Below, piece after piece: positions 30,326-52,436 of a DNA stretch of 64,000 nt. Position 1 is the stretch's first letter. Each line of letters starts with the position of its first letter. The stretch lies in the NCBI RefSeq assembly GCF_009664835.1, contig NZ_CP045929.1:2914001-2978000 (forward strand). Direction: 5' to 3'. The stretch is from Allosaccharopolyspora coralli. Its GTDB lineage: Bacteria; Actinomycetota; Actinomycetes; Mycobacteriales; Pseudonocardiaceae. The notes beneath the pieces were generated by a model, which worked only from the letters and a program-made list of their open reading frames with translations, made no database searches and was not told the origin of the DNA. Both the position numbers and the translations under genes were made by a program.

Positions 30326-31273
30326 TCAGTCCTGGGCAGGCACGGGTGCGCTGTGGGCGCGGCTGTCCCGTGCACGCTCGCGTTGCGGGATGACGACGTA
30401 CTTCGGGTCCTGAGCAGAGGCGACACCGGCGGCGTACACGCCGAACCGCGTGCACAGGCCGCCCGCCAGGAATGCGATCCCTGCGGCGAGCCCCACGGAA
30501 CGGCGCCTCCGCGAGAAGAGCGAGAGCACTGCGCCCGTGGCCGTCAACGCGCGAGACGCCGTGAGGAGTTTGCCCGCACGGCCCGTACGGTACGTCTCAG
30601 ACACCAGCCGAGGCGCATGCTCCAACCGGAAGGCGGCGGCGAGTTCGACCGCCGAGCCGAGCAGTCCCAGCCGTACGACGGGCCGGAGTTCTCGTGGTGG
30701 AACGACCAACAACGCGGCCCCGGCGGCGCTGGCGACGGCGCTGCCCGCGAACAACACGGGCAGATCACGGTAACTCTCGTGCCAGGCAGGGGTCGCGGTA
30801 TCCGCCAGCAACACCGCCGTGTACGTGCACATCGCGGGTCCGAGCACTCCGGCCGCACCACCGGCGACCGTGCCCGCCACCGGCAGGCGGCCGGTCAGGT
30901 CGGACGCCGCCGAGGCCGCGGCGAGGCCCGAGAACGGCGCCAATATCCACGACCCGACCGACAACGGTGAGGTCGGCTTGAACACCCGCAGCATGTTCAG
31001 GAAACGCGTGGGCCTGCCCAGGTCGTGAATCAGTGCGACGACGCTGGCCGTCGCGCCGCCGGCCGCGACAATGCGGCCCGTTCGGGTCAGTGTCGGATAC
31101 CCGGTGCGGTCGGCCATCGCGGCCATGCTCGCGGCCGCTCCCGCGGCGCCGCCGAGGAACAGATACAGCGGCACGTCCGGCTGTTCCCATGCGGGTTCCT
31201 TCAGGATCGGCCTGCCGTAGTACGACCGGAACTCGGCCTTGTCCACCATCGGCCGTTCCGCGCGCGGGCTCAC
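30326..31273 (-). CDS. NrfD/PsrC-like membrane subunit of formate dehydrogenase
   Basis: 315-residue polytopic membrane protein with about eight hydrophobic segments. YYGRPILKEPAWEQPDVPLYLFLGGAAGAAASMAA near the N-terminus and HDLGRPTRFLNMLRVFKPTSPLSVGSWIL (conserved His and Arg region) are typical NrfD-type quinone-site features. It anchors the iron-sulfur and catalytic subunits and passes electrons to menaquinone. GTG 31273 is chosen: it overlaps the fdhB stop (GTGA) and has GGAGG upstream; ATG 31249 is the alternative. It ends 21 bp before hairpin copy 1. Confidence 0.85.
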   Translation of the reverse strand: MSPRAERPMVDKAEFRSYYGRPILKEPAWEQPDVPLYLFLGGAAGAAASMAAMADRTGYPTLTRTGRIVAAGGATASVVALIHDLGRPTRFLNMLRVFKPTSPLSVGSWILAPFSGLAAASAASDLTGRLPVAGTVAGGAAGVLGPAMCTYTAVLLADTATPAWHESYRDLPVLFAGSAVASAAGAALLVVPPRELRPVVRLGLLGSAVELAAAFRLEHAPRLVSETYRTGRAGKLLTASRALTATGAVLSLFSRRRRSVGLAAGIAFLAGGLCTRFGVYAAGVASAQDPKYVVIPQRERARDSRAHSAPVPAQD

Positions 31274-32136
31274 CGCCGTCCTCCGAGGAACGCACCCGCG
31301 ACCGTGGCGGCCACACCCAGCGCCACCGCGCCCGCACTCGCCCACATGGCGGGCAAATCCCGGGTGGTCACGACCGGATCCGGAGGGAATCCGTAGACCT
31401 CGGGTTCGTCCAGCAACAGGAAGAACGCACCGTCCCCGCCGACACCGTCCTGCGGATCGTGCCCGTACAACCGCGCCTCGCCGACCCCGGCCTGGTGCAG
31501 CGCATCGACACGCTCGGACGCCCGTTGCCGAAGTTCGTCCAAGTCCCCGTACTGGATGGAATCGGTCGGGCACGCCTTGGCGCACGCGGGCTCCATTCCC
31601 GCGCCGAGCCGGTCGTAGCACAGCGTGCACTTGAAGGCGCCGCCGTCGGTCTCCCGTTTCTCGATGACACCGTACGGACAGGCAGGCACGCAGTAACCGC
31701 AGCCGTTACAGATGTCGTCCTGAACGACGACCGTGTCGAACTCGGTGCGGAACAACGCGCCGGTCGGGCACACGTCGAGACAGGCCGCGTGCGTGCAGTG
31801 TTTGCAGACGTCGCTGGACATCAACCACCGGACACCCGCCTCGCCATCCTGTGCGGGCGCGCCCACCGTGGGCATCCCCAGCTGCACCGCTTCGGAGGTC
31901 TCCGGACGCGGCGCCACCGTCTGCTCGATGAACGCCACGTGACGCCAGTTGTTCGCCCCGAGGTCCGCGGTGTTGTCGTAGGACATCCCGAGCAGGTCGA
32001 GCTCTTCGTGCCCGTTCGCGGGAACCGCGTTCCACTCCTTGCACGCGACCTCGCAGGCCTTGCATCCGATGCAGACCGAGGTGTCGGTGAAGAAGCCCTT
32101 TCTCGGCTGCGGGTGGTCGTAGCCGGTCCCACTCAC
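31270..32136 (-). CDS. fdhB: Formate dehydrogenase iron-sulfur (beta) subunit
   Basis: 288 residues with four ferredoxin-type Cys clusters: CIGCKACEVACKEW (22-35), CKHCTHAACLDVCPTGAL (about 110-127), CNGCGYCVPACPYGV (about 143-157) and CTLCYDRLGAGMEPACAKACP (about 168-189), enough for four [4Fe-4S] centres. A hydrophobic helix at about 262-282 near the C-terminus could fix it in the membrane. GTG 32136 overlaps the fdhA stop (GTGA), and its own stop overlaps the nrfD-like start, so the operon is coupled throughout. Confidence 0.92.
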   Translation of the reverse strand: MSGTGYDHPQPRKGFFTDTSVCIGCKACEVACKEWNAVPANGHEELDLLGMSYDNTADLGANNWRHVAFIEQTVAPRPETSEAVQLGMPTVGAPAQDGEAGVRWLMSSDVCKHCTHAACLDVCPTGALFRTEFDTVVVQDDICNGCGYCVPACPYGVIEKRETDGGAFKCTLCYDRLGAGMEPACAKACPTDSIQYGDLDELRQRASERVDALHQAGVGEARLYGHDPQDGVGGDGAFFLLLDEPEVYGFPPDPVVTTRDLPAMWASAGAVALGVAATVAGAFLGGRR

Positions 32137-35100
32137 GTCTCGTCTCCCCCTTCTCTCGCCCTGCGTTGATACTCCTCGACGAAGTCCCTGAGCGCGGGTC
32201 CTCGTGGCCGTCGTCCGGGCCGGATGTCACAAGTGGCGGCTTTCGACTCCTGGATGTGCACGTTCGGGTCGAGCACGATGGGAAGGAGATCGTTCGCCGC
32301 ATCTCCTGTGGACAGACCGTTGCTTCCCCAGTGGTACGGAAGCCCGATCTGATGGATCGTACGACCCTGCACGCGCAACGGCCGGATCCGCTCGGTGACG
32401 AGTACCCGCGCCTCGATCGCCGTCCGCGAGGAGACGATCGTCGCCCACCCGCCGTGCTCGAGCCCGCGTTCGGTCGCCAGCTCGGGAGAGACCTCACAGA
32501 AGAACTCCGGTTGCAGTTCCGAGAGGTACGGCAGCGTCCGGCTCATCCCGCCCGCGGTGTGATGTTCGGTGAGCCGGTACGTCGTGAACACGTAAGGAAA
32601 CACGCCGCCGTCGGTCGGATGGTACTGGTTGTCGCGACCAGAGTAGCGCTGACGAACGGGATTGTGCTCCTGCCCGTACAACGCATTGTCCACAGGGGAC
32701 TCCTGTGGTTCGTAGTGCGTCGGCAACGGCCCGTCGGCCAGCCCCGAGGGGGCGAACAACCAGGCACGTCCGTCGTGCTGCATGATGAACGGTTCGTTCC
32801 CGGCGATCGCGTCCTGAGCGCGCGCACCCGGAGGCGGATCATAGGTGGGCGCCTTGTCTCGTTGAAAGTCCGGAACGTCCGGGCCGGTCCAACGGCCGCT
32901 GGCGGCATCCCACCAGATGTAGCGCTTCCGCTCGCTCCAAGGATGTCCTTGCGGGTCGGCCGACGCGCGGTTGTAGAGGATGCGCCGGTTGGCGGGCCAT
33001 GCCCACGCCCAGTCGGGGGCCACCCAGCTCTGCTCCGAACCGGGCGTGCGGTTCGCGGCATGGTTGTGCCCACCGCCACGGACCCCACAATAGATCCAGC
33101 AGCCGCACGACGTGGACCCGTCCGCGGCGAGTTCGAGGTACGACGACAACGGCCCGTCAGGGCCGGTTCCGTTGATCTCCGCGAGAACGGCTTCCGCGTC
33201 CGGTTCGGCCGTCGGCCCCTCGGTCGGATAGTCCCAGACGAGGTCCCGCACCGGCCGGTCACGCGGATCGTCGCTGTCGGCGAGCCGCTGCTGGACGATC
33301 CGCCCGAGGTGGTAGTAGAACCACAGGTCGCTGCGTGCGTCACCGGAGGGTTCCACGGCCTTGTGGTGCCACTGCACCAACCGCTGCGTGTTGGTGAAGC
33401 TCCCGTCCTTCTCGGTGTGCGAGGCGGCGGGAAGGAAGAACACTTCGGTGCCGATCTCGTCGGTGCGCAACTCCCCGGTCTCGATCTCAGGGCCGTCCTT
33501 CCAGAACGTGGCGCTCTCGATGAGTTGTAGGTCGCGCACCACGAGCCAGTCGAGGTTGGCCATGCCGAACCGCTGCATCCTGCCGTTCGCGGACCCCACC
33601 GCGGGGTTCTCGCCGACCAGGAAGTAGCCCTTGCACGTGCCCTCGATCTGGTTGCACACGGTGGTGTAAGTGCCGTGATCGCCGCTGATCCGGGGCAGGT
33701 GGTCGAACAGGAAGTCGTTGCCCGCGTGGGCGTTGTCGCCGAACCAGGCTTTGAGCAGGCTCACCACGTAGGAGCGCATGTTGCCCCAGTACCCGGCTTT
33801 GTCCTCGTCCGCGGCGACGAACTCGTCCACCGAGGTGTCCTCGTCGGCGTTGGGCATCGGGACGTAGCCGGGCAGGATGTTGAACAACGTCGGGATGTCG
33901 GTCGAACCCTGGATGCTGGCGTGTCCGCGCAGGGCCAGGATTCCTCCGCCGGGCCTGCCGATATTGCCGAGCAAGGACTGCAGGATCGAGGCGGTGCGGA
34001 TGTACTGCGCCCCGACCGTGTGGTGCGTCCAGCCCACGGAGTACACCCACGCGGTGGTGCGCTCCCGACCGGAGTTGACGGTGACTGCCTCGGCGATCTC
34101 GTGGAACTGCGCCACCGGGAGACCGCATATCTCGGCGACAGCCTCGGGCGTGTACCGGGCGAAATGCCGGCGCAACACCTGATACACGCACCGCGGGTGC
34201 TGCAATGTCTCGTCCATCCGCGGCTTCGCGCGCAGCGGCGCACCTCCGCTGCCGTACCGGTCGGCGCCACCGGCGCGCTGACGGGTGCGGAACCGTCGAC
34301 GATCCTCCGAATCCTCGGTTTCGTACGCCCAGGTTTCGGCGTCGTACTCCCGGTCCTGATCGTCGAAGCCGGAGAACAGGCCGTCGAGGTCCTCCGTGTC
34401 GACGTAGTCCTCCCGCAGGATCGCCGCCGCGTTCGTGTAGGCCAGGACGTATTCGCGGAAGTCCTTTTCCTGCGTCAGAACGTAGTTGATCAAGCCTCCG
34501 AGGAAGGCGATGTCCGTCCCCACCCGCAGCGGAGCGTGCACGTCGGCCAGCGCGCTGGTCCTCGTGAAACGCGGGTCGACGTGGATGACCTTCGCGCCGC
34601 GTTCCTTGGCCTCCATCACCCACTGGAACCCGACGGGATGGCACTCGGCCATGTTGGATCCCTCGATGACGATGCAGTCCGCGTTGACGAGATCCTGCTG
34701 GAAGGTCGTGGCGCCGCCGCGCCCGAAGGAGGTCCCCAGACCGGGAACCGTGGCGGAGTGTCAAATGCGCGCCTGATTCTCCACCTGCACCGCACCGAGC
34801 GCTGTGTAGAGCTTCTTCATCAGGTAGTTCTCTTCGTTGTCCAGGGTGGCCCCGCCCAGGCTCGCGATGCCCAGCGTGCGGTTGACCCAGCGGCCGTTCT
34901 CGTCGCATTCCTGCCAGGTCTGCTTCCGCGTGTCCAGCACCCGGTCGGCGATCATCTCCATCGCCTCGTCCAGCGACAGCCGCTCCCAGTCGCGTCCGTA
35001 GGGACGCCGGTAGAGCACCTCGCGGACGCGAGTCGGACTGGTGACGAGCTGCTTGCTCGCCGCACCCTTCGGACAGAGCCTGCCGCGGGAGATCGGCGAG

Positions 35101-35330
35101 TCGGGATCCCCTTCGATCTGGGTGACCTCGCCGTCGCGCACGTAGACCTTCTGGCCGCAGCCCACGGCGCAGTAAGGACAGACGGAACGCACCACGTCGT
35201 CGGCGTCCTCGGTGCGCGCGTGCCACTGTCGGGTCTGCTCGGACTGTGCCGAGGCCGACCGGCCGAGCGGGTCGGACCCGGTGAGCTGCCGGTAGACCGG
35301 CCACCCCTCGATCCACTGCCGCAGACCCAT
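32133..35330 (-). CDS. fdhA: Selenocysteine-containing formate dehydrogenase catalytic (alpha) subunit
   Basis: 1065 residues if TGA at 34763-34761 is read as selenocysteine (Sec190). Before it: CPYCAVGCGQ with the [4Fe-4S] cysteines (51-60), RGRLCPKG, and ENQARI; after it: HSATVPGLGTSFGRGGAT, the standard continuation of Mo/W-bisMGD formate dehydrogenases. Later parts include GSNMAECHPVGFQWVMEAKERGAK and the MoCo-binding C-terminal domain. It oxidises formate to CO2. No twin-arginine signal is seen at the N-terminus (MGLRQWIEGWPVYRQ), so it probably faces the cytoplasm. A SECIS-like hairpin follows the TGA, and selB and selA lie directly upstream. Confidence 0.94.
34731..34763 (-). promoter_or_regulatory. 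Selenocysteine codon and SECIS element in fdhA
   Basis: Reading the minus strand: TGA (34763-34761), an 11-nt spacer, stem GGTTCCC (34749-34743), loop GGTCT, stem GGGGACC (34737-34731). The stem pairs over 7 bp with one G-U. The loop matches the GGUCU loop of the E. coli fdhF SECIS, and the 11-nt spacing also agrees with the bacterial type. Confidence 0.85.
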
Positions 35331-35372
35331 CTCGCCCCCTCACCCGGTGCGAGTTCGGAATTCGACTCGACG

Positions 35373-37172
35373 CTACCGCGTGTCCTCGCCCACCGCAGCC
35401 CTCGGCGCGCGGCAGCGTCGAGCGGTGTCGGTGATCCGTTCGGTGATCCCCTGCGCATCGAGCTGTTCCAGCAACGGGATCGCGACACGCCGAGTGGTGT
35501 CCAGCGCCCGTTTCGCCTCGCTGACGCTGAACTCGCCGTCGAGTCCGGCGAGGACTTCCGCCGCTCGGGACAGCGCCCCGGGGCCGAGCACCACGCCGTC
35601 GGCGACGCGCGTGAGCCTGCCGAGTCGCACGGCGGCCGCCAGTTCCTTCGTACCGAGCCCGAATCGGGCCAGTTCCTCGGCCTCCGGGGCGCGGAACGGA
35701 TCCGCGGCGAGCCCGCGCTCCACGATACGAACGGCGTCCTCCACGGCCCGCGGCAACGCGTCCTGCTCGCTCGGACTCCGGACCCGGCCATCCACGACGG
35801 TGAATCCGGCGTTCTCCGCGAGACGGGCGGCGAGATCACGCGAGGGCATGTCGAGCTCGCGGCGGAGTTCGTCGATCGGCATCCCTGCGGCGAGTCCGTG
35901 GTCCGCGTCCCACCGGGTCAGGACGGCCCTCGCACGATCGGCGGTACGTATCCAGGTCTCGGTGTCCACCTGCCACCCCTCGACCTCACTACCCGGGACC
36001 GGGAGGCCCGTCACCCGGAACTCGGCGGCGCGCACCTGCCCCAGCCTCGCGAGCCGATCCTCGGCGAGCGCGGTCACCGGATCACGACGAGCCGCCAACG
36101 CGGCGAGCAACGCTCCGCGGCGGCGCGCGAGCCCTCTGCCGGAGATCGAGGGCGGGTCGACGTCGAGGACGCGAAACCCCGCCGCGATCCGGTGCTCACC
36201 CGGGTCGCGCAACAGCCCCGTGTCGGAGACCCGCAACGGCAGCGACGCCTCCAGCAACAGGCGCGCAGTGTGGGCTCCCAGCGGCCGGACGTGGACGGGC
36301 ACGTCAGCGGTGCCGACGTGCAGGACGAGGTGCCGGTGCAACCGTTCGGGGTCGCAGGCATGCAACGCGACGTCGAACTCGCGCGTACCGCGCCAGCGTT
36401 CGGGCGTGAGTAACGCGTCTCCACGCTCGACCTGCGCCCGGTCCGTCCCGCGCAGGTTCACCGCCACCCGCGCGGTGGCGGCCACCTGCTCCGCGGACTC
36501 ACCGAGCACGTGCAGCCCGCGCACTCGCGCCGGGTGACCGGTGCGCGAGACGACGAGCTCGTCCCCGAGCCTGAGCGTGCCGCCCGCGAGCGTGCCCGTG
36601 GCGACCGTGCCTGCTCCGCGCACGCTGAACACCCGGTCGACCCACAACCGCACGTCGGCGTCGAGGTCCGGTGTGGGCAGGCTCGCGGCCAACGACTCCA
36701 GTTCTTCGTGTAGCCGGTCCAGCCCGAGCCCGGTGCGGGCGCTGACCGCCACGCTCGGCATGTCCGCCAGCGTCGTGCCCGCCAGTTCCGCCAGGGCTCC
36801 GTCCCTCGCCGGTGCGGGATCGGCGATGTCCGCCTTGGTGACCACGAGCAGGCCGTGCCGCACACCGTGGGCGTGTAGTGCGGCGAGATGCTCGGCGGAC
36901 TGCGGCATCCACCCCTCGTCGGCGGCGACCACGAACAACACCGCCGGGGCGGGACCGACCCCGGCCAGCATGTTCGGCACGAATCGTTCGTGGCCCGGGA
37001 CGTCGACGAACGCGAGCGTGCGCCCTCCGGTCGCCGTCCACGCGAAGCCGAGGTCGAGAGTGAGGCCACGGCGGCGTTCCTCGGTCCAACGGTCCGGTTC
37101 CATCCCGGTGAGGGCCCTCACGAGCGCGGATTTGCCGTGGTCGACGTGCCCGGCGGTGGCGATCACGTCCAT
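35373..37172 (-). CDS. selB: Selenocysteine-specific elongation factor SelB
   Basis: 599 residues. EF-Tu-like GTPase with G1 AGHVDHGKSALVRAL (7-21), G3 DVPGHE (about 58-63) and G4 VTKADIAD; domains II-III follow to about 340; the C-terminal 250 residues form winged-helix repeats that bind the SECIS (for example FSVSEAKRALDTTRRVAIPLLEQLDAQGITERI). It delivers Sec-tRNA to the TGA in fdhA, whose start is 42 bp downstream. ATG 37172 overlaps the end of selA by 10 bp. Confidence 0.94.
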   Translation of the reverse strand: MDVIATAGHVDHGKSALVRALTGMEPDRWTEERRRGLTLDLGFAWTATGGRTLAFVDVPGHERFVPNMLAGVGPAPAVLFVVAADEGWMPQSAEHLAALHAHGVRHGLLVVTKADIADPAPARDGALAELAGTTLADMPSVAVSARTGLGLDRLHEELESLAASLPTPDLDADVRLWVDRVFSVRGAGTVATGTLAGGTLRLGDELVVSRTGHPARVRGLHVLGESAEQVAATARVAVNLRGTDRAQVERGDALLTPERWRGTREFDVALHACDPERLHRHLVLHVGTADVPVHVRPLGAHTARLLLEASLPLRVSDTGLLRDPGEHRIAAGFRVLDVDPPSISGRGLARRRGALLAALAARRDPVTALAEDRLARLGQVRAAEFRVTGLPVPGSEVEGWQVDTETWIRTADRARAVLTRWDADHGLAAGMPIDELRRELDMPSRDLAARLAENAGFTVVDGRVRSPSEQDALPRAVEDAVRIVERGLAADPFRAPEAEELARFGLGTKELAAAVRLGRLTRVADGVVLGPGALSRAAEVLAGLDGEFSVSEAKRALDTTRRVAIPLLEQLDAQGITERITDTARRCRAPRAAVGEDTR

Positions 37173-38473
37173 GCCCGGACCGCCTCTGTGAGTAGCTGGT
37201 CCTCGTCAGGGTCGACGCTGCGCAGGTCCAGCAGGCAACGTCCGTCCTCGACCCGGCCCACGACCGGCGGATCACCGCGCCGCAACACCTCGGCGTAGCG
37301 CGCGGGCAGGCTCACCGCCGCACTCGGCAGCTCGACGCCGGGGGCGCCGCCACCGCCGACGGCGGCGATCGAATCCACGCTGTGCGCTTCCACTCCTGCC
37401 GTAACCAGCGTGTCCACTACGGCGAGGACTCGGCGGCGGAGCTCGTCCCGCGAGGTGTTCAGCGCGGCAGGCACGCGAGCGATGGGACCGCGCACCGTCG
37501 CCTCCAAGGCTGCCAGCGTGAGCTTGTCGACGCGCAGCGCCCGCGCCGCCGGGTGCCTGCGCAACCGGTGAATCCAGGACTCGCCCCCGGCGAGCAGGCC
37601 GGCCTGCGGTCCCCCGAGCAGCTTGTCGGCACTCGCGGTCACCACGGCAGCACCTGCCCGGAGCGAGGAAGCGGCGTCAGGTTCGTCCGGCAGCGCCGAA
37701 TGCGCCGTCAACAGACCCGAGCCGATGTCGACCACCAGCGGCGCGGGCAAGGCGGCGAGTTCGGCCACCGCCGGGGCCGAGGTGAAGCCGGTGACCAGGA
37801 AGTTCGACGGGTGTACCTTGAGCACGAAGCCGGTTCGCGGCCCGATCGCCGCCCGGTAGTCCTCCACCGTCGTCCGGTTCGTCGTCCCCACCTCGTGCAG
37901 GTGAGCGCCGGTGGCGGCGAGCAGGTCGGGGATGCGGAAACCGTCGCCGATCTCGACGAGTTCGCCACGGCTGACGACGATCTCCTGCCCGGGAGCGAGC
38001 GCGAGCGCGCACAGGAGCAGCGCCGCGGCGTTGTTGTTGACCACGTGCACGTCGGCGGCCTCGGGCAACGCCGTGCGCAACCCGTCCAATGCGCCTCGTC
38101 CCCGTGGGGACCGGCTGCCTTCCGCGAGGTCGAATTCGATGTCGGTGTGTCCTGCCGCCTCGGTGACCGCGGTGACCGCCGCGTCCGACAACGGAGCACG
38201 CCCCAGGTTCGTGTGCACGAGAACTCCGGTGGCGTTGACGACCGGACGCAGCGAGTTCGCCGACCGTGGCAGGCCCGCGAGCGTGGCCGCCACGACGCCG
38301 TCCGGAGCGATCTCCTGGCGACGGACCAACTCCTGCGCGTCGGAGACGGCTTGCTTCACCAGTCCGCGCCCGAGCCGCTGCACGGCAGCGCGGATGTCGG
38401 GTTGTGCGAGCACGTCGTCGGTGCGCGGCACGAGCCTGCGCTGGTCCCCCGTCGGGTGCCGGTCTTCCGTCAT
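37163..38473 (-). CDS. selA: L-seryl-tRNA(Sec) selenium transferase SelA
   Basis: 436-residue PLP enzyme that converts Ser-tRNA(Sec) to Sec-tRNA(Sec). Family regions: RPVVNATGVLVHTNLGRAPLS (about 70-90), VVNNNAAALLLCALALAPG, SRGELVEIGDGFRIPDLLAATGA, and the PLP lysine in TASADKLLGGPQAG. I place the start at ATG 38473 (MTEDRHPTG); the open frame runs further upstream but is not family-like. Couples into selB by overlap. Confidence 0.93.
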   Translation of the reverse strand: MTEDRHPTGDQRRLVPRTDDVLAQPDIRAAVQRLGRGLVKQAVSDAQELVRRQEIAPDGVVAATLAGLPRSANSLRPVVNATGVLVHTNLGRAPLSDAAVTAVTEAAGHTDIEFDLAEGSRSPRGRGALDGLRTALPEAADVHVVNNNAAALLLCALALAPGQEIVVSRGELVEIGDGFRIPDLLAATGAHLHEVGTTNRTTVEDYRAAIGPRTGFVLKVHPSNFLVTGFTSAPAVAELAALPAPLVVDIGSGLLTAHSALPDEPDAASSLRAGAAVVTASADKLLGGPQAGLLAGGESWIHRLRRHPAARALRVDKLTLAALEATVRGPIARVPAALNTSRDELRRRVLAVVDTLVTAGVEAHSVDSIAAVGGGGAPGVELPSAAVSLPARYAEVLRRGDPPVVGRVEDGRCLLDLRSVDPDEDQLLTEAVRAWT

Positions 38474-38582
38474 GGGCGGCGGCGACGCGGTGTGTCGAGG
38501 CTGGCGGTCATGACCCCATGCTGCCAAGTCGTCCCGCCCGCCGCGAGGAGAACTGCGACGGGCGGTCCATTGTGGAACTCGA

Positions 38583-38915
38583 TCAGCGGCCGACGGCCTT
38601 CTCCAGCTCCGCCTTGCTCATCTTGGAGCGACCCGCGACCTTCTGCTTCCTGGCGTCCTCGTACAGCTGCTGTTTCGTCCGTCCGCCTGGCCCGTACCGG
38701 TTACCCGAGCGGATCCCGCCCCGCCGCTGCGGTGAGATGTCCTCGGTGGCGACCGCACTACGCTGCCGTGCCTGTCCCTGCTGCGCCCGGTCCTTGTTCA
38801 CAGTGCGCGCGGCGATCTCCTCGGCGCGCCCCTCGCTGGAGCCACGCTGCTTGGTGGACTCCTTGATGTGCTGGTACTGACGTTCCTGCTTTCGGTTCCA
38901 CGTCGGCTGCGGCAC
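38583..38915 (-). CDS. Small charged protein with a C-terminal Rho-N/SAP-like motif
   Basis: 110 residues, strongly charged: QPTWNRKQERQYQHIKESTK, a Gln/Arg-rich middle (NKDRAQQGQARQRSAV), and a C-terminus TKQQLYEDARKQKVAGRSKM and SKAELEKAVGR resembling the Rho N-terminal/SAP helix pair that binds nucleic acid. Such proteins are often labelled plasmid stabilization protein without evidence. GTG 38915 has GGAGG upstream; an earlier in-frame GTG sits on that ribosome-binding site. It lies between selD and selA but has no known role in selenium metabolism. Confidence 0.65.
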   Translation of the reverse strand: MPQPTWNRKQERQYQHIKESTKQRGSSEGRAEEIAARTVNKDRAQQGQARQRSAVATEDISPQRRGGIRSGNRYGPGGRTKQQLYEDARKQKVAGRSKMSKAELEKAVGR

Positions 38916-39147
38916 CGTCGTCACCTCCCGGCATGTACGTCTCGTCGGCCGTATCGGGTGCGCGAATCGATCTGCGTCGGCCCGAAGCTCAGCTCGCGGC
39001 TGCGAACCCTCCGGTGGCCGGTCTGCACAGCCGGCGGAAGAACCGTCGGCGCACCGTTCCTGACCACAACCTCTCTTCGCGCGACCTCTCAGTCCTACCC
39101 GAAGCGCCACGCCCGTACACATCCGCTCGGCGGTTCGCCAGGCACGC

Positions 39148-40182
39148 TCAGCGCACCACGAGTGGGTGTTCCCCGGGCGCACGCAGCTCCCCGATGACCG
39201 GTGCTCCCGGAATCTCCCCAGCTACGAGCAGGCCGCCGGAAGTCTGCGCATCAGCGAGCAGCAGCGCGTCCTCCTCCCCCACGGTCATGTCGGCGTCCGG
39301 CCGAACCCAGTCGAGATTGCGTCTGGTCCCGCCGCTGACCTGCCCGTCGCGTACGGCCGGGCGGGCGCCGTCCAGGTAGGGCACCGCGTTGGCGTCGATC
39401 ACCACCGTCACCCCGCTCGCGCGGGCCAGCTTGAGTGCGTGCCCGAGTAGCCCGAAGCCCGTCACGTCGGTGGCGCAGACGATGCCCGCGGCCACGGCGG
39501 CCCGCGAGGCGTCCGCGTTCAACGTCGTCATGGTGTCCACGGCTGCGGCCGAGTATCGACCGGTGGCCTTGTGGGCTGTGTTGAGCACTCCGATGCCGAG
39601 CGGTTTCGTCAAGGACAACGGTGTTCCCGGTCGCCCGGCGTCGTTGCGCAGCAACCGGTCCGGGTCGGCGATTCCCGTCACCGCCAGCCCGTACTTCGGC
39701 TCCGGGTCGTCGACACTGTGGCCGCCGGCGAGGTGACAGCCCGCCGTGGTGCACACCTCGAGCCCGCCGCGCAGCACCTCGGTAGCCAGGTCGAACGGCA
39801 GCACCTCACGCGGCCAGCCGAGCAGGTTCACCGCCACCACCGGTCTCGCACCCATCGCGTACACGTCGGAGAGCGCGTTCGCTGCGGCGATCCGTCCCCA
39901 GTCGAACGGGTCGTCGACGACCGGGGTGAAGAAGTCGGTCGTCGCGACGACGGCGGTGCCGTCGCCGATCCGCACCGCAGCGGCGTCGTCCCCCGCGTCG
40001 AGCCCCACCAGCAGCTCCCCTTGCGCGTCGGGGGGCGTGCCGACAGCGAGTGTGGCGACCATGCTCTCCAACTCACCCGGGGGAATCTTGCAGGCGCAGC
40101 CGCCGCCGTGGGCGTACTGAGTCAGCCGATGTCCCATCATCAACATCATGCAGCAACCGCCCGAGGTGCGCTCGGTTCGCAT
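39148..40182 (-). CDS. selD: Selenophosphate synthase SelD (Cys form)
   Basis: 344 residues. Makes selenophosphate from selenide and ATP. The active site reads YAHGGGCACKIPP: Cys29 and Lys32 correspond to E. coli Cys17 and Lys20, so this SelD does not itself need selenocysteine. Downstream marks: TTDFFTPVVDDPFDWGRIAAANALSDVYAMGA and CTTAGCHLAGGHSVDDPEPKYGLAVTG. The start is uncertain: ATG 40182 is used, but ATGs within MMLMMGHRLTQ closer to the active site are possible and none has a strong ribosome-binding site. Divergent from the tRNA-Sec gene 31 bp away. Confidence 0.92.
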   Translation of the reverse strand: MRTERTSGGCCMMLMMGHRLTQYAHGGGCACKIPPGELESMVATLAVGTPPDAQGELLVGLDAGDDAAAVRIGDGTAVVATTDFFTPVVDDPFDWGRIAAANALSDVYAMGARPVVAVNLLGWPREVLPFDLATEVLRGGLEVCTTAGCHLAGGHSVDDPEPKYGLAVTGIADPDRLLRNDAGRPGTPLSLTKPLGIGVLNTAHKATGRYSAAAVDTMTTLNADASRAAVAAGIVCATDVTGFGLLGHALKLARASGVTVVIDANAVPYLDGARPAVRDGQVSGGTRRNLDWVRPDADMTVGEEDALLLADAQTSGGLLVAGEIPGAPVIGELRAPGEHPLVVR

Positions 40183-40213
40183 CCTGTGATGGGCTGCTGC
40201 CCAGTGTGCGCGA

Positions 40214-40308
40214 GGAGGCGTATCCGGCCTGGTGACCGGCGCGGCCTTCAAAGCCGTTGAACGGCAGGTTCTGCCGTTGGCGGGTTCGATTCCCGTCCGC
40301 CTCCGCCA
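40214..40308 (+). tRNA. selC: tRNA-Sec (anticodon TCA)
   Basis: 95 bases including an encoded CCA (40306-40308). Acceptor arms GGAGGCG (40214-40220) and CGCCTCC before discriminator G40305; anticodon TCA at 40248-40250 in loop CTTCAAA with stem CGGC/GCCG; a long variable arm AACGGCAG-GTT-CTGCCGTT; T-loop TTCGATT. The long variable and D arms and the TCA anticodon identify selenocysteine tRNA. It completes selA, selB, selC and selD within 5 kb. Confidence 0.96.
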
Positions 40309-41406: not shown

Positions 41407-42594
41407 TCACGACGCCACGGTGACCAGCCCCGGCCGGGTCAGTTGCCGGCGGGCCCGTCCGAATCCCCGCGGCGAGTTGAAAGCGAGCAACCCCACGGGT
41501 TGCCCGTCGCGCTCGTACTGGGCGAGGAAGCACCGATCGTCGACCGCGCCCTCCAGGATGCGCACGTCGTCTTCGGGGTGGACGAAACCGGTGAACTGGA
41601 TGCGCACACCGTATTGATCCGACCAGAAGTAGGGCAGGTCGTCGTGGCGCTCGACCGTGCTCCCGGCGAGCAGGTTTCCGACGGCCACCCGAGGTTGCTT
41701 CATCGCACTGCTCCAGTGCTCGATGCGTGCCGTACGGCCGAGATCCTGCCGGTGGCAGCGCGCCACGTCTCCGACGCCGACGACGTTCGGCAGGTCGGTC
41801 ACCCCGCCCGCGTCGCACAGCACCCCGTCCTGAACGCCCACGCCGGAACCGGCGAGCCACCCCGTGTTGGGTTCGACCCCGATTCCGGTGACGACGACGT
41901 CGGCGGGCAGGTGTTCCCCTGTGGACAGATCCAGACCCACGACCCGCCCGAAGGAGGTACACAGTCGGTCCACGCCTACCCCGAACCGCACGTCGACACC
42001 GTGTTCGCCGTGCAGCTGTGCGCAGACCGCGGCCATCTCCTGCCCGAGAGCGCGCGCCAACGGCAGCTCGGCGGCCTCGACGAGCGCGACGTCCAGTCCC
42101 AGCTTCCGGCACGACGAGGCGACCTCGGCGCCGATGAATCCCGCGCCGACGACGACCACCCGCGGCCTCCCGTGCGTCAGTTCGTCGCGTAGCCCCACCG
42201 CGTCCTGCAGGGTGCGCAGGGCGTACACACCCTCCACATCGGAGGCCCCTGGAAGTTGTCGCACCGATGCACCGGTCGCGGCCACCACCCCGTCGGTGCG
42301 GACGTGAGCGCCGCTGACCAGCTCGAGACACGCGTCGGACGGGCGAAGTCGTGCGACGGGGTCGCCGAGTATCCACTCGGCCTCCAGGTCGTCGTAGTCG
42401 GACTGCTCACCCAGCGCCAGCTGATGTTGGTCCGCATCGCCCACGAGAAAGTCCTTCGACAGCGGAGGCCGATCGTAAGGTGGATGCACCTCGGCTCCGA
42501 CCATCACGAGACGCCCGTCGAATCCTTGCGAACGCAGCTGCTGAGCGGTGGAAAATCCCGCCAACGACGTGCCGACGACCGCGATCGTCCTCAT
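41407..42594 (-). CDS. FAD-dependent ferredoxin reductase of the Rieske oxygenase system
   Basis: 395 residues of the oxygenase-coupled NADH-ferredoxin reductase family. FAD motif IAVVGTSLAGFSTAQQLRSQGF (4-25), PPYDRPPLSKDFL (about 41-53), NADH motif VVVVGAGFIGAEVAS (about 143-157), the second FAD site GVGDVARCHRQDLG, and a C-terminal reductase domain with WSDQYGVRIQFTG. ATG 42594 follows GGAGG; upstream in-frame sequence belongs to the ferredoxin gene region. It pairs with the Rieske ferredoxin 17 bp upstream and likely powers the betaine oxygenase at 47656-48774. Confidence 0.86.
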   Translation of the reverse strand: MRTIAVVGTSLAGFSTAQQLRSQGFDGRLVMVGAEVHPPYDRPPLSKDFLVGDADQHQLALGEQSDYDDLEAEWILGDPVARLRPSDACLELVSGAHVRTDGVVAATGASVRQLPGASDVEGVYALRTLQDAVGLRDELTHGRPRVVVVGAGFIGAEVASSCRKLGLDVALVEAAELPLARALGQEMAAVCAQLHGEHGVDVRFGVGVDRLCTSFGRVVGLDLSTGEHLPADVVVTGIGVEPNTGWLAGSGVGVQDGVLCDAGGVTDLPNVVGVGDVARCHRQDLGRTARIEHWSSAMKQPRVAVGNLLAGSTVERHDDLPYFWSDQYGVRIQFTGFVHPEDDVRILEGAVDDRCFLAQYERDGQPVGLLAFNSPRGFGRARRQLTRPGLVTVAS

Positions 42595-42611
42595 GCGACT
42601 TCCTCCGCTCC

Positions 42612-42926
42612 CTATTCGAGAGCCGGCACGGCGACGTGCACGTAGACGAGCCCGTCCTCGACCGTGACCGGATGCGTGCGGACCGGCCGCTTCGCGGGCA
42701 GGCACGTCGGGACTCCGGTGCGCAGGTCGAAAAAAGCCGCGTGCAAGGGACATTCGACGAAGCAGCCCTCCAGGAACCCGTCGGAGAGCGAGGCGTCCTG
42801 GTGGGTGCAGGTGTCGTCCACCGCGTAGTACTCGCCGTCGGCGTTGAACACGGCGACGGGGACGTCAGCGTGGATGCGGACGGACTCACCGGGCGGCAGC
42901 TCCTCGGTACGACAGGCAACGAACAT
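42612..42926 (-). CDS. Rieske [2Fe-2S] ferredoxin
   Basis: 104 residues with cluster ligands C40-T-H42 and C59-P-L-H62, in the pattern CTHQDASLSDGFLEG...CPLHAAFFD. ATG 42926 has GAGGAGG upstream; the longer frame runs into the regulatory region. Electron carrier between the flavin reductase just downstream and an oxygenase. It is read away from mscR across a 344-bp regulatory gap. Biphenyl-type ferredoxins look alike, so partner choice is inferred from the neighbouring Rieske oxygenase. Confidence 0.9.
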   Translation of the reverse strand: MFVACRTEELPPGESVRIHADVPVAVFNADGEYYAVDDTCTHQDASLSDGFLEGCFVECPLHAAFFDLRTGVPTCLPAKRPVRTHPVTVEDGLVYVHVAVPALE

Positions 42927-42937
42927 GACCCCTCCTC

Positions 42938-43200
42938 GTGTTGCGGATAACCCAACGGGGCGCGCTATACGCAACACAATCCCTGAGTGCCCAGAGGCCG
43001 TCAAGAGGCGGTGCCGATTGATTCAACGCTGGCCGATCAGGACTTTTCCACCGTATGAGCGCAAGAACGGCTCGACGCGGACACGTCGTCGCCGTACTCG
43101 ACAGTAGCCCGGAGTCACATCGTCAACACCCCTTGACAGCACTCCCCGGTGCTCTCCATCGTGTTTCACATCGGGCAACCCTTCGCGCATCGCGCAACAC
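42938..43200. promoter_or_regulatory. Divergent control region with GTGTTGCG repeats
   Basis: The 344-bp gap between the Rieske ferredoxin gene and mscR. It holds GTGTTGCGGATAACC at 42938-42952 (+), GTGTTGCGTATAGCG on the minus strand of 42963-42977, and GTGTTGCGCGATGCG on the minus strand of 43186-43200; a weaker GTGTTTCACATCGGG is at 43161-43175. The first two form a 40-bp inverted pair just upstream of the ferredoxin start. They look like binding sites of one unidentified regulator. No gene is seen in the gap. Confidence 0.5.
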
Positions 43201-43270
43201 AGCCCGGGTGATCCTCAACTTCTCCACCCCACCGAACTCCGCGGCGCTGCGTGCCGGAGAGGAGAGATCT

Positions 43271-44359
43271 TTGCTGCACAAGGTCCGAGGTGTCGTCTCA
43301 CTCAAAGAGGGCGCACCCGTGGAACTGACGGACATCCTGGTGCCGGATCCCGGCCCGGGAGAGGCGCTCGTCGCCGTGCAGGCCTGCGGGGTCTGCCACA
43401 CCGACCTCGCTTACCGCGACGGCGAGATCAACGATCAGTTTCCCTTCCTGCTCGGGCACGAAGCGGCGGGTGTCGTCGAGTCCGTCGGCGACGGAGTCAC
43501 CGACGTGGAACCCGGCGACTTCGTGGTGCTGAACTGGCGCGCCGTGTGCGGGCGCTGCCGCGCATGCAAGCGTGGTGAGCAGCAGTACTGCTTCGACACC
43601 CACAACGCTCGGCAACCGATGACCCTGGAAGACGGAACCCCGCTCTCCCCCGCGCTCGGTATCGGGGCGTTCGCGGACAAGACCCTCGTCGCGGCTGGGC
43701 AATGCACCAAGGTCGACCCGGACGTCGAGCCCGACGTCGCCGGACTTCTCGGCTGCGGCGCTATGGCCGGAATCGGCGCCGCGATCAACACCGCACCGGT
43801 TCGACGCGGCGACACCGTCGCGGTCATCGGCTGCGGCGGCGTGGGCAGCGCCGCCATCGCCGGGGCCGAGATCGCGGGCGCACGCCGGATCATCGCCGTC
43901 GACGTCGACCCGAGGAAACTCAACTGGGCGGGCAGGTTCGGTGCCACCGACCTGGTCAACGCGCGGCACGGCGACCCCGTGGAGGCGATCCGCGCGTTCA
44001 CCGACGGGTTCGGTGCCGACGTCGTCGTCGACGCCGTCGGGCGACCCGAAACCTACCGGCAGGCCTTCTACGCCCGCGACCTCGCGGGCACGGTGGTCCT
44101 GGTCGGGGTCCCGAGTCCGGAAGCCACTCTGGAACTGCCGCTGCTCGACGTCTTCGGACGGGGCGGCGCGCTCAAGTCCTCGTGGTACGGCGACTGCCTG
44201 CCCAGCCGCGACTTCCCGATGCTGGTCGACCTGCACCAGCAGGGTCGCATCGACCTGGAGGAGTTCGTCACCGAGAGGATCGCCGTCGACCAGGTGGAGA
44301 CCGCGTTCACGAAGATGAACGCCGGCGAGGTGCTGCGATCGGTGGTGATGTTCCGATGA
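43271..44359 (+). CDS. mscR: S-(hydroxymethyl)mycothiol dehydrogenase (formaldehyde dehydrogenase)
   Basis: 362-residue zinc alcohol dehydrogenase. [32 protein letters not shown] is the typical MscR start; catalytic zinc ligands in [10 protein letters not shown] and GHEAAGVVE; structural zinc cysteines in [18 protein letters not shown] motif [22 protein letters not shown]. It oxidises the mycothiol adduct of formaldehyde to S-formylmycothiol. The start is TTG 43271 with GGAGAGGAGAG upstream; the frame is open much further back without similarity. Followed by the metallo-hydrolase with an ATGA overlap. Confidence 0.9.
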
Positions 44360-44986
44360 CCGCACGGGTGGAGCTCACGCGCACCTCCGGCGTGTTCCAA
44401 CTCGACGGGGGGGACCTTCGAGGTCGACAACAACGTCTGGATCGTCGGTGACGACCACGAGGTGCTCGTCGTCGATCCGTCCCACGAACCGGACCGAATC
44501 CTCGCCACGATCGGCGGGCGCCGCGTGACCGCGGTCGTGTGCACCCACGGGCACAACGACCACATCAACGGTGCCGTCCCGGTCGCCGACGCGGTGGGAG
44601 CACCCATCCTGCTGCACGCCGAGGACGAGGTCCTGTGGAAACAGGTCCACCCCGACCGCACCCCGGACGGAACGCTCGTGGACGGCGATCGCTTGTCCGT
44701 CGCCGACGTCGATTTCGAGGTGCTCCACACCCCCGGACACACCTGGGGCGGGATCTGTCTGCATGCGGCCGAACGCGGCTGGTTGTTCTCCGGCGACACG
44801 TTGTTCCGTGGCGGCCCCGGGGCCACCGGGCGGTCGTACTCGGACTTCCCCACGATCGTGCACGCGATCTCAAAACGACTCCTCGGCCTCGACCCCGCCA
44901 CGATCGTCCACACCGGACACGGCGAGACCACGACCATCGGCGAGGAAGCACCGCACCGCGAGGAGTGGCTGATCCGAGGCCACTGA
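44356..44986 (+). pseudogene. MBL-fold metallo-hydrolase with a frameshift in a G7 tract
   Basis: The gene starts at ATG 44356, overlapping the mscR stop (ATGA), and reads [19 protein letters not shown], then loses frame at seven Gs (44408-44414). With six Gs it continues TFEVDNNVWIVGDDHEVLVV into the open frame to 44986, for a protein of about 209 residues. The metallo-beta-lactamase motifs are intact after the shift: VCTHGHNDH, HTPGHTWGG, FSGDTLF, and HTGHGETT. This hydrolase accompanies mscR in actinobacteria and probably frees formate from S-formylmycothiol. Either the gene is broken, the G count is a sequencing error, or a shorter product from an internal start (for example 44462) is made. 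Confidence 0.75.
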
Positions 44987-45087
44987 GCAGGGGTTCACGC
45001 CCGTTCCACGAACCGGCGGTCCGCATCGGGGCTGCCGGGACGACCCTACGCGCCTTTTGTCCCACCGCTGTGAAAGGACGAATGCTG

Positions 45088-47541
45088 ATGGCACGACACG
45101 CAGTGCCCCGAGTGGTCATCATCGGCGCAGGCATCGTCGGTTGCTCCGTGGCCGACGAGCTGACCGAACGCGGATGGACGGACGTGACCGTGGTCGAGCA
45201 GGGGCCGCTGTTCACGACCGGAGGCTCCAGCTCGCACGCCCCCGGCCTCGTGTTCCGGACCAACGCGTCACGGACGCTCACCGAGTTCGGCGACTACACC
45301 GTCCGCAAGTTCCGGGACCTGTCCCTGGACGGCAAGCCCTGCTTCCGGCCGGTCGGTGGTCTGGAGCTGGCCACCACGCAGGAACGCTGGGACGATCTCC
45401 GGCGCAAGAGCGGCCTGGCCGCCTCGTGGGGAATCCGATCGGAACTCCTCAGCGCCGACGACTGCACCGAGCTGTGGCCGACGGTCGACGGCGAGCAGAT
45501 CTTCGGCGGTCTCTACACACCGGACGACGGTCTCGCCACGGCGCTCCGCGCCGGTGAGGCGCAGGCCCGTCGCGCAAGCGGCCGAGGCGCGGTGTTCCTG
45601 GCACATCACACCGTGCTCGACATCGAGCGGCGCAACGGCCGGGTCAGCGCGGTCGTGACCGACCACGGAGCCGTACCCGCCGACATCGTCGTCTCCGCCG
45701 CCGGATTCTGGGGCCCGACGATCGGTCGCATGGTCGACGTCGACATCCCGCTGCTGCCCATGGCTCACCAGTACGCGAAGACGACCCAGCTCCCCGAGCT
45801 GGTGGGGCTCAACGACGAACACACCGAGGCACGCCGTCCCATCCTGCGCCACCAGGATGCCGACCTGTACTTCCGGGAACACGTCGATCGTCTCGGGATC
45901 GGCAGTTACGCCCACCGTCCGATGCCGGTCGACCTCGACGACCTGGCCGCCGACCCGTCCAGTGCCATGCCGTCGATGCTCACCTTCACCGACGCCGACT
46001 TCGATCCGTCGTGGCAGGAGTCCCTGCGGCTGCTCCCCGGGCTGGCGGACACCAAGCTCGACGAAGGGTTCAACGGCGTCATGTCGTTCACCTCCGACGG
46101 CATGCCCCTGATCGGCGAGTCCCGCGACGTACCCGGCTTCTGGATGGCCGAGGCTGTCTGGGTCACGCATTCGGCGGGTGTCGCCAAGGCCTTGGCCGAG
46201 TGGCTCGTCGACGGTCGCCCCTCGACCGACCTGCACGAATGCGACCTGCACCGGTTCGAACCGGTGCAACGCGACCCGCAGTACGTTCGTCAGCGCGCCA
46301 CGGACGCGTTCGTCGAGGTCTACGACGTAGTCCACCCGCTGCAACCCGCAGAGCACCCTCGGCCGCTGCGCACCAGCCCGTTCTACCCACGTCAACAGGA
46401 ATTGGGGGCGTTCTTCCTCGAAGCAGGGGGCTGGGAACGTCCACACTGGTACGAGTCGAACGCCGCGTCGGTCGATGAGCTCACCCTTCCCGAACGCGGC
46501 GATTGGGCCTCCCGGTACTGGTCCCCGATCGCCGCCGCGGAAGCCGAAGCCACTCGGAACCGGGTCGCCCTGTACGACATGACACCACTGAAGCGGCTGG
46601 AGATTCGCGGTCCCGGTGCGCTGGAGTTCCTGCAACGAATGACGACGGGGCAGATGAACAGGAAGCCGGGCGCCGTCGGCTACACCCTGCTCCTCGACGA
46701 AGCCGGGGGTATCCGCAGCGACGTGACGGTCGCACGACTCGGCGACGACGTATTCCAGGCGGGCGTCAACGGCGCACTGGATCTGGACTGGCTGCAGCAG
46801 CATCTGCCTGCCGACGGATCGGTGGCCATTCGGGACATCACCACGGGCACATGCTGCGTCGGAGTGTGGGGGCCGTCCGCACGTGCGCTGGTGCAGCCGC
46901 TGACCACCGAGGACTTCTCCCACGAAGGATTCGGGTTCTTCAAGGCTCGCCACGCGAACATCGCGGGAGTCCCGGTGACGGCGATGCGCGTGTCCTATGT
47001 GGGCGAGCTCGGATGGGAGATCTACGCGGACGCCGACGTCGGCCTGCGTCTGTGGGACAGCTTGTGGGAGGCGGGCGAGCATCTCGGTGTCACCGCCGCA
47101 GGGCGCAGTGCCTTCAACAGTCTCCGGTTGGAGAAGGGTTACCGTGCGTGGGGTACGGACATGACGGCCGAACACCACCCGTACGAAGCCGGCGTCGGTT
47201 TCGCCGTACGGATGACCAAGGGCGACTTCGTCGGACGGTCCGCGCTGGACAATCTGGCCGCCCAGCCCACCGGCCGCAAGCTCGTGCCACTCGTGTTCGA
47301 CCATCCCGAGCACGTCGTGATGGGCAAGGAACCCGTCTACCACGAAGGGGTTCCGGTCGGCTACGTCACCAGCGCCGCCTACGGGTACACCCTGCGGGCC
47401 TCGATCGCCTACGCGTGGATCGACAGCAACTGGACGGATCCGGGAACACAGGTCCATGTCGAGTACTTCGGACAGGCGTACCCGGCGTCCGTCGCGACCG
47501 AGCCCCTGTTCGATCCCGAGATGACACGGATCAGGCGCTGA
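45088..47541 (+). CDS. dmg: Dimethylglycine oxidase (FAD and folate domains)
   Basis: About 817 residues, closely resembling Arthrobacter dimethylglycine oxidase. N-terminal FAD domain: VVIIGAGIVGCSVADEL, then SSSHAPGLVFRTNASRTLTE, GIGSYAHRPMP and EAVWVTHSAGVAKA. C-terminal GcvT-like folate domain: YDMTPLKRLEIRGPGALEFLQ, SYVGELGWEIY, NSLRLEKGYRAWGTDM. It oxidises N,N-dimethylglycine to sarcosine and passes the methyl carbon to THF as methylene-THF or releases formaldehyde. ATG 45088 has better spacing from AAAGGA than ATG 45082. The next gene is the betaine oxygenase. Confidence 0.92.
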   Translation: MARHAVPRVVIIGAGIVGCSVADELTERGWTDVTVVEQGPLFTTGGSSSHAPGLVFRTNASRTLTEFGDYTVRKFRDLSLDGKPCFRPVGGLELATTQERWDDLRRKSGLAASWGIRSELLSADDCTELWPTVDGEQIFGGLYTPDDGLATALRAGEAQARRASGRGAVFLAHHTVLDIERRNGRVSAVVTDHGAVPADIVVSAAGFWGPTIGRMVDVDIPLLPMAHQYAKTTQLPELVGLNDEHTEARRPILRHQDADLYFREHVDRLGIGSYAHRPMPVDLDDLAADPSSAMPSMLTFTDADFDPSWQESLRLLPGLADTKLDEGFNGVMSFTSDGMPLIGESRDVPGFWMAEAVWVTHSAGVAKALAEWLVDGRPSTDLHECDLHRFEPVQRDPQYVRQRATDAFVEVYDVVHPLQPAEHPRPLRTSPFYPRQQELGAFFLEAGGWERPHWYESNAASVDELTLPERGDWASRYWSPIAAAEAEATRNRVALYDMTPLKRLEIRGPGALEFLQRMTTGQMNRKPGAVGYTLLLDEAGGIRSDVTVARLGDDVFQAGVNGALDLDWLQQHLPADGSVAIRDITTGTCCVGVWGPSARALVQPLTTEDFSHEGFGFFKARHANIAGVPVTAMRVSYVGELGWEIYADADVGLRLWDSLWEAGEHLGVTAAGRSAFNSLRLEKGYRAWGTDMTAEHHPYEAGVGFAVRMTKGDFVGRSALDNLAAQPTGRKLVPLVFDHPEHVVMGKEPVYHEGVPVGYVTSAAYGYTLRASIAYAWIDSNWTDPGTQVHVEYFGQAYPASVATEPLFDPEMTRIRR

Positions 47542-47655
47542 TGTCGTCCCGTGGAACGGTGGCGCATCGTTCGCGAAGCGGTACGCCGCCACCGATCCCC
47601 GCTGCCCGCAGTTCCACCTCAGTGTCGCGTGACCGATGTGAGTGAGGAAGGACCC

Positions 47656-48774: not shown

Positions 48775-48813
48775 GCCTTTTTAGTGGCTATAGCAACCAA
48801 AAAGGCTCACGCT
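48768..48813. terminator. GCTATAGC hairpin terminator, copy 3
   Basis: 46-bp near-palindrome, arms AGCGTGAGCCTTTTTAGTGGC / GCAACCAAAAAGGCTCACGCT around TATA, two mismatched pairs. The TGA of the Rieske oxygenase gene is at 48772-48774, within the left arm. The convergent gntR gene ends 28 bp further on. Confidence 0.82.
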
Positions 48814-48841
48814 GCCGTGGCCGTGCGCGGGGCGAGACACG

Positions 48842-49516: not shown

Positions 49517-49533
49517 GCTGCTAACCTAGCATC

Positions 49534-49553
49534 ACAACTGAAATTTCAGTTGT
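49534..49553. promoter_or_regulatory. Perfect 20-bp palindromic operator for the GntR regulator
   Basis: ACAACTGAAATTTCAGTTGT is fully self-complementary. It lies 17 bp upstream of the gntR start and 58 bp upstream of glyA, so one site could control both directions. Confidence 0.75.
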
Positions 49554-49611
49554 CCGTTACTGGTATACCTAACGCCTTCCCCGTGTCGTCCGCAGCAGGA
49601 AGGGATCGCCC

Positions 49612-50898: not shown

Positions 50899-50911
50899 GG
50901 GAGGCCACCCG

Positions 50912-52138: not shown

Positions 52139-52160
52139 CCACACCGAGGACGTGACGCTG

Positions 52161-52436
52161 ATGATGTTGATTCCGTGCCCGTGGTGCGGGCCCCGTGACG
52201 AGACCGAGTTCCACTACGGCGGCCAGGCGAACGTCGCCTACCCCGCCGATCCGCAGGAGCTCTCCGACGAACAGTGGGCCCGATTCCTGTTCCACCGGGC
52301 CAACCCGAAGGGTGAGTTCACCGAACGCTGGTGCCACACGGCCGGATGCCGGCGATGGTTCGCCGTCCGGCGCGACACGGCGACCAACACGGTCCTGCAC
52401 CACACCTCACAGGATCCGAAGGCGGTGGCCCCATGA
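52161..52436 (+). CDS. soxD: Sarcosine oxidase, delta subunit
   Basis: 91 residues. CPWCGPRDETEFHYGGQA at the start and ERWCHTAGCRRWFAVRRDT near the end give a four-cysteine zinc site (CxxC...CxxxxC), as in known SoxD. LIPCPWCG and YPADPQELSDEQWARFLFHRANPKG are standard. ATG 52161 (or 52164). Its stop overlaps the soxA start (ATGA). Confidence 0.93.
   Translation: MMLIPCPWCGPRDETEFHYGGQANVAYPADPQELSDEQWARFLFHRANPKGEFTERWCHTAGCRRWFAVRRDTATNTVLHHTSQDPKAVAP

Follow-up and report, generated by a model that had tools for sequence, protein, structure and literature searches.

A selenocysteine-decoding module beside one formate dehydrogenase in Allosaccharopolyspora coralli

The actinomycete Allosaccharopolyspora coralli very probably possesses a complete selenocysteine-decoding module that serves a single formate dehydrogenase, a membrane-bound and molybdopterin-dependent enzyme, with UGA codon 190 of fdhA read as selenocysteine and the FdhABC proteins oxidising formate. 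The module lies within a stretch of 64,000 nucleotides (NZ_CP045929.1, positions 2,914,001 to 2,978,000), here called the window, in whose numbering the module is described. The genes, the in-frame UGA, a conserved hairpin and one tRNA-Sec are all present there, and FdhD is encoded by one copy elsewhere in the genome. On the strength of the families to which the proteins belong, SelD would produce selenophosphate, SelA would convert Ser-tRNA-Sec into Sec-tRNA-Sec, and SelB would deliver the charged tRNA to the ribosome and bind the hairpin located 11 nt after the fdhA UGA, so that UGA 190 would be read as selenocysteine. FdhA, FdhB and FdhC would then convert formate to CO2, with the electrons presumably passing to the quinone pool.

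The components that characterize a bacterial selenocysteine-decoding trait were all found: SelA, SelB with a winged-helix C terminus, a tRNA-Sec with a UCA anticodon, SelD, and an in-frame UGA accompanied by a SECIS hairpin (Table 1). A previous sequence-only reading of this DNA had proposed a complete module consisting of selA, selB, selC and selD together with a selenocysteine formate dehydrogenase. This proposal is confirmed: the sel proteins score above their NCBIfam cut-offs and the tRNA-Sec above its Rfam cut-off. FdhA matches the NCBIfam model NF041513 (formate_DH_Act) with 1953.4 bits against a cut-off of 1400, from position 2 to 1067 of the 1067 model positions. FdhB scores 164 bits against TIGR01582, under the cut-off of 335. 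Both fdhB and fdhC (30326-32136) are part of the unit and, because of the hydrophobic end of FdhB and the NrfD-like character of FdhC, the enzyme is expected to reside at the membrane.

Table 1. Features of the selenocysteine module and of the adjacent betaine/C1 cluster (window coordinates)
Feature	Position	Strand	Assignment and remarks
fdhC, NrfD-type membrane subunit	30326..31249	-	PF03916
fdhB, iron-sulfur subunit, C-terminal hydrophobic stretch	31270..32136	-	PF13247
fdhA, selenocysteine formate dehydrogenase catalytic subunit	32133..35330	-	NF041513
SECIS apical hairpin, GGUUCCC-GGUCU-GGGGACC	34731..34749	-	11 nt past the UGA
In-frame UGA, selenocysteine 190 (NQARI-U-H)	34761..34763	-	
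selB, Sec-specific elongation factor	35373..37172	-	TIGR00475, 276 bits (cut-off 242); PF09107 SelB winged helix
selA, L-seryl-tRNA(Sec) selenium transferase	37163..38527	-	TIGR00474, 411 bits (cut-off 268); PF03841
ORF of 110 aa between selD and selA	38583..38915	-	
selD, selenophosphate synthetase, Cys form	39148..40149	-	TIGR00476, 391 bits (cut-off 125); PF00586/PF02769; start codon inferred
tRNA-Sec (selC), anticodon TCA	40214..40308	+	Rfam RF01852, 80.4 bits (gathering score 47)
Ferredoxin reductase	41407-42594	-	
Rieske ferredoxin	42612-42926	-	
Mycothiol-dependent formaldehyde dehydrogenase	43319-44359	+	TIGR03451, over cut-off
Metallo-beta-lactamase	44462-44986	+	
Dimethylglycine-oxidase-like	45112-47541	+	
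GbcA-like oxygenase	47629-48774	+	224 bits (cut-off 670)
SHMT	49669-50898	+	
Sarcosine oxidase soxB/A/G	50912-55853	+	
Serine ammonia-lyase	55844-57196	+	
PurU	57242-58090	+	

On the minus strand the order is selD, the 110-residue ORF, selA, selB, fdhA, fdhB and fdhC, with selD and the tRNA-Sec divergent. As the end of selA shares 10 bases with selB, 42 bases separate the end of selB from the start of fdhA, and fdhB overlaps fdhA by 4 bases, the selA-selB-fdhABC genes probably form one transcript. The layout had been described as a one-direction set ordered fdhA-selB-selA; the single direction stands, and the order has to be reversed, transcription proceeding from selA to selB, fdhA, fdhB and fdhC. 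The adjacency of selD and the tRNA-Sec stands too, with the amendment that selD shares the strand of selA and the tRNA-Sec alone occupies the opposite one. The start codon of selA is either TTG at 38527 or ATG at 38473. The product of the 110-residue ORF has no match in Pfam or NCBIfam, and one locus among the 80 named ones, L036, has a 61% match to it about 2 kb past fdhC. A promoter scan found no sigma-70-like promoter, a result that says little in this bacterial group.

The translation of fdhA comprises 1,065 residues with a single in-frame TGA. A motif search returned 91 matches, a few of which are copies of this same gene, and TGA occupies the selenocysteine site in all 91. Other selenocysteine codons were rejected on this count, TGC/TGT, TAG and TAA being detectable only within the same conserved motif. 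The hairpin has the same 11-nt spacing and GGUCU loop as that of Escherichia coli fdhF (L157). Across 25 distinct sequences, standard pairs account for 96.6% of 175 cells and every slid version of the hairpin pairs worse than the actual register. Compensatory changes affecting both sides are seen at two of the seven pairs, judged against a control that ignores relatedness, and the outermost pair is absent in 6 of the 25 sequences. All 77 sequences compared use GGT for the glycine of the loop; at 21 other conserved glycine columns, GGT makes up 170 of 1,598 codons and is the commonest codon at none. The 48-nt stretch does not fold more stably than its shuffled versions (z 0.30). By itself this energy is unremarkable; support for the SECIS element rests on conservation and covariation.

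A search of the whole 4.83 Mb genome with RF01852 yielded nine matches, and the tRNA-Sec next to selD is the only one over the cut-off. Its orientation sets the window apart: the tRNA-Sec lies on the strand of selA in all 69 named loci that contain both (80 examined) and in all 56 such loci from the family Pseudonocardiaceae (58 examined), whereas the two are on opposite strands here. The pooled figure of 125 out of 125 is not a tally of independent events, as named and unnamed loci may share species. Conversely selD, which shares the strand of selA in the window, is opposite to it in 63 of 65 named loci and in 53 of 53 family loci with both genes. Because selD and the tRNA-Sec are both flipped with respect to selA and yet retain their divergent order, an inversion of the pair best explains the layout. 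Exact inverted repeats were discarded as the cause of the flip, since none of 11 bases or more exists between the would-be inversion ends. The two exceptions in selD orientation (L068, L076) represent another module type, present in Streptomyces and Amycolatopsis (L068, 2877-12768; L076, 2980-12756), which consists of a distant fdhA (41%), fdhB, fdhC, tRNA-Sec, selA, selB and selD, on a single strand throughout. Further arrangements were noted: the tRNA-Sec stands directly ahead of selB, with no selA in the stretch, in L029 (9822-13767), L118 and L125, and in L029, from Haloechinothrix, a Mutator-type transposase follows. Genomes G206 and G217 have two listed tRNA-Sec over the cut-off apiece.

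Modules of this sort are widespread in the family. The tRNA-Sec exceeds the cut-off in 271 of 390 family genomes, SelA is found in 265 (34 of 46 genera), and NF041513-like FdhA, scored as present at E 1e-200, in 239 (31 of 46 genera); FdhA and SelA occur together in 224. The genus Allosaccharopolyspora is represented among the genomes compared by this genome only. Among 80 named loci fetched with SelB, at least 51 contain selA, selB, selD, tRNA-Sec and fdhA within the stretch, a lower bound because contig ends cut many of the 80. The fdhA gene is more than 55% identical in 49 of these 51 complete loci, and it follows selB within 400 bases in 27 of the 80. The complete loci and the family counts together indicate that the compact set is frequent. 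The sequence-only reading had stated that sel genes near fdh are known in bacteria, which agrees with clusters in print (for instance those in the available parts of PMC2830990 and PMC7176365), and had regarded a compact, complete set as notable in this group of actinobacteria, a view that the counts above and the published clusters do not support. Nor are the sel genes dispersed at separate loci in all relatives, the outcome named as one that would speak against the proposal: the loci of relatives were examined and this is not the case. The module of the window is an ordinary, complete one of a known kind. It is a clear-cut instance, in which a single selenoprotein is visible and selD and the tRNA-Sec are flipped, from a genus of which one genome has been sampled.

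The association between FdhA and SelA is imperfect. In fifteen of the 390 genomes FdhA occurs but SelA does not, and in 41 (among them G007, G081, G184 and G232) SelA is unaccompanied by an NF041513-like FdhA, discrepancies that were counted against the preferred explanation. The latter 41 must employ the selenocysteine trait through another formate dehydrogenase or through other selenoproteins. The in-frame stop was read from the FdhA sequences among the matches listed, with G004, G056, G263, G286 and G320, which have FdhA without SelA, left out. Among those matches, FdhA lacks the stop in G009, G201, G221, G222 and G223; SelA gave no match in any of these five, and their tRNA-Sec matches are absent or weak (best E 9.7e-8). 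This is the pattern expected if selenocysteine had been lost, and loss with replacement of the residue is the likely history of these five genomes. A different combination, FdhA with TGA, a strong tRNA-Sec and no SelA match, characterizes G036, G313, G333, G334 and G337. SelA is therefore probably missing from the drafts of G036, G333, G334 and G337, which are 82–83% complete; this does not account for G313, which is 98% complete in about 560 contigs. The survey, being well sampled, lends itself to work on how FdhA and the selenocysteine trait sustain each other.

Several other explanations have to be weighed against a functional module serving one enzyme. The automatic ORF call cuts fdhA in two, as would be expected if the TGA were a nonsense mutation and the gene a pseudogene; this has practically no probability, as the frame continues for 875 codons beyond the TGA and relatives have TGA at the same site followed by the conserved hairpin, and the idea was set aside on that conservation. 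A different proposition is that the sel genes are kept for other selenium uses, either more selenoproteins or selenouridine, and that their place by fdhA is historical. Few selenoprotein families were sought and the SECIS model employed (R1) was trained on fdhA alone; moreover, the 41 genomes among the 265 with SelA that have no NF041513-like FdhA imply that the trait can persist otherwise, or with another FdhA. Even so, this proposition is most unlikely: across the whole genome the model finds fdhA only, the next match having an E value of 1.9, and just one of the four PF00384 proteins, FdhA itself, contains an in-frame stop, the other three resembling NasC, YdeP/FdhF and NuoG. The best genome match to the selenouridine synthase MnmH/YbbB reaches 21.5 bits against a cut-off of 219.75, so that the selenouridine trait was not detected by this search. 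SelD has cysteine rather than selenocysteine at what we take, by analogy with E. coli SelD, to be the active-site position, which leaves FdhA as the sole selenoprotein seen. The UGSC selenoprotein family gave no match in a genome search that carries little weight, its control having given no match either. The proposal that the module serves one selenoprotein is thus supported, and other selenoproteins, the second outcome named as adverse to it, did not appear in this limited set of searches, there being no second fdhA-like SECIS, no second PF00384 protein with an in-frame stop and no selenouridine synthase over the cut-off. At C1:1319800-1328380 (L203, L159) the fdhD gene lies about 7 kb from a gene for a YdeP/FdhF-like oxidoreductase (TIGR01701). 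This oxidoreductase may be a formate dehydrogenase that needs no selenium, a point counted against the preferred explanation.

The history of the block raises a further alternative, namely that A. coralli acquired it recently in the form of one transferable unit. The sequence-only reading held that the layout would allow such transfer and named codon use as a check. Every part is within 10 kb, and transfer of fdhA and the sel operon as a set has been inferred for other bacteria (PMC1794560 and PMC5029168, in the portions available). In addition, one relative appears to document the process: in Amycolatopsis bartoniae (L024), FdhA is placed among mycobacteria, SelA and SelB fall in starred, mainly mycobacterial sets, and the sequences nearest to SelD are mycobacterial, although in no starred set. 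This species is likely, from the tree positions, to have received its fdh-sel unit from mycobacteria. For A. coralli, on the other hand, recent acquisition is very unlikely. The codon-use distances of six module genes (0.043–0.088) are no greater than those of 17 neighbours (0.047–0.099) and carry no sign of recent transfer. FdhA has a long branch to itself and groups with Pseudonocardiaceae sequences, those of Amycolatopsis and Actinophytocola (88 support, not starred); the starred set around them counts 16 sequences, among which three are from Streptomyces and one is from Allonocardiopsis. The window SelB and SelD are in no starred set, and the SelD sequences nearest to the window's are both mycobacterial and from Amycolatopsis. 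These trees are quick ones without bootstrap, and the branch of the window's protein is long for SelA, SelB and SelD; the FdhA tree was built from sequences of more than 55% identity, and all four trees from sequences that cover at least 60% of the query in a single segment. Further points against recent acquisition are that the scanned genes adjoining the block (mannitol-dehydrogenase-like and SAM methyltransferase) are not mobile-element genes, that the would-be inversion ends have no exact inverted repeats of the length given above, and that SelA is so common in the family. Neither composition nor tree position unlike the host, the marks of a recently transferred selenocysteine unit, emerged from codon use and the FdhA tree, and recent transfer into this genome was set aside on these grounds. 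The earlier suggestion of transfer as a unit finds support in a relative only, and not in A. coralli.

A glycine-betaine demethylation/C1 cluster (41407..58090) lies outside the module, 1–18 kb from it. It contains two routes to formate, the formaldehyde route and PurU. The metallo-beta-lactamase is a possible S-formylmycothiol hydrolase. The substrate of the GbcA-like oxygenase is a presumed one because its score is under the cut-off, and soxG, with 134 bits against a cut-off of 144, yet passes its Pfam cut-off. Another catabolic region at 15523-29268 of the window is devoted to glucuronide and glucarate, with a beta-glucuronidase, glucuronide transporter, glucuronate isomerase, 5-dehydro-4-deoxyglucarate dehydratase and GntP-type transporter, along with a glucarate dehydratase just under its cut-off.

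Whether the nearness of the betaine cluster has functional meaning affects how the module is understood. The gene neighbourhood suggests that formate derived from betaine methyl groups, via the mycothiol-dependent formaldehyde dehydrogenase and PurU, may be a main substrate of the enzyme. A bolder reading, tentative and on balance unlikely, is that the selenocysteine formate dehydrogenase moved beside the betaine cluster, so that one region would carry out the full oxidation of betaine methyls to CO2, the use of betaine as a carbon source would require traces of selenium, and the flip would give the protein-coding sel and fdh genes a single direction of transcription. The methyl groups would reach CO2 by way of mycothiol-dependent formaldehyde oxidation and PurU, with the selenium enzyme as the last step. 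If true, osmolyte breakdown in an actinomycete would go only as far as the supply of selenium allows, a link that is easy to test. The neighbours fit biochemically, and a formate dehydrogenase of Colwellia is co-located with betaine-degradation genes according to the available text of PMC3691474. The balance nevertheless tilts somewhat towards a chance rearrangement without functional meaning, perhaps the same event that flipped selD and the tRNA-Sec. Near the module, the flanks of the named loci (80 in all, up to 10 kb, some ended by the contig) contain nothing closely similar to the betaine genes: alcohol-dehydrogenase-like matches of 27–35% occur in nine loci and one ferredoxin-reductase-like match of 31% was seen. 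Of the 390 family genomes, 302 carry the dimethylglycine-oxidase-like gene. From FdhA or SelA it is 8 kb away here and at least 249 kb away in 30 other genomes among the matches listed; from the tRNA-Sec it is 109 kb away in G304 and 724 kb in G367. This comparison covers 32 other genomes chosen by eye among the matches listed, with both genes on one contig, and genomes in many contigs fall outside it. The betaine genes also form a unit of their own, conserved with no nearby formate dehydrogenase in the 20-kb stretches L198, L199 and L200. The adjacency is particular to the window genome among those compared, and one case cannot show function; its absence from the relatives compared was also counted against the preferred explanation.

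Colwellia psychrerythraea, a gammaproteobacterium, offers a likeness to the wider region: gbcAB, soxBDAG, glyA, purU, a formaldehyde dehydrogenase and fdhGBAD are close together as in the window, and the available text (PMC3691474) does not use the word 'selenocysteine' or mention a mycothiol route. Nearer to the module itself is Corynebacterium aurimucosum, from a different actinobacterial lineage, in which fdnG/fdxH are accompanied by selABCD, a full sel set by a selenocysteine formate dehydrogenase as in the window. This likeness concerns gene content; the set has been in print since 2010, with a gene order that the authors call highly conserved (PMC2830990, in part). A cluster of this kind in Amycolatopsis mediterranei is related in the accessible part of PMC4048454. 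The FDH1 cluster of Actinomycetospora chiangmaiensis DSM 45062 combines fdhA1-B1-C1 with selA-selB, as in the window, and selenium-dependent formate oxidation has been measured in Actinomycetospora. According to the sections available, that organism has three selenocysteine formate dehydrogenase systems, a permease in the cluster and a SelD listed without a cluster, in contrast to the single system of the window (PMC7176365). The closest counterparts are the NF041513 loci of Amycolatopsis, Mycobacterium and Streptomyces, whose FdhA is 62–77% identical to that of the window in the best segment (41% in L048, L068 and L076). Like the window, these loci have fdhB and fdhC, an fdhA placed directly after selA-selB, and selD and the tRNA-Sec nearby; the window differs from them in that selD and the tRNA-Sec are flipped as a pair relative to selA.
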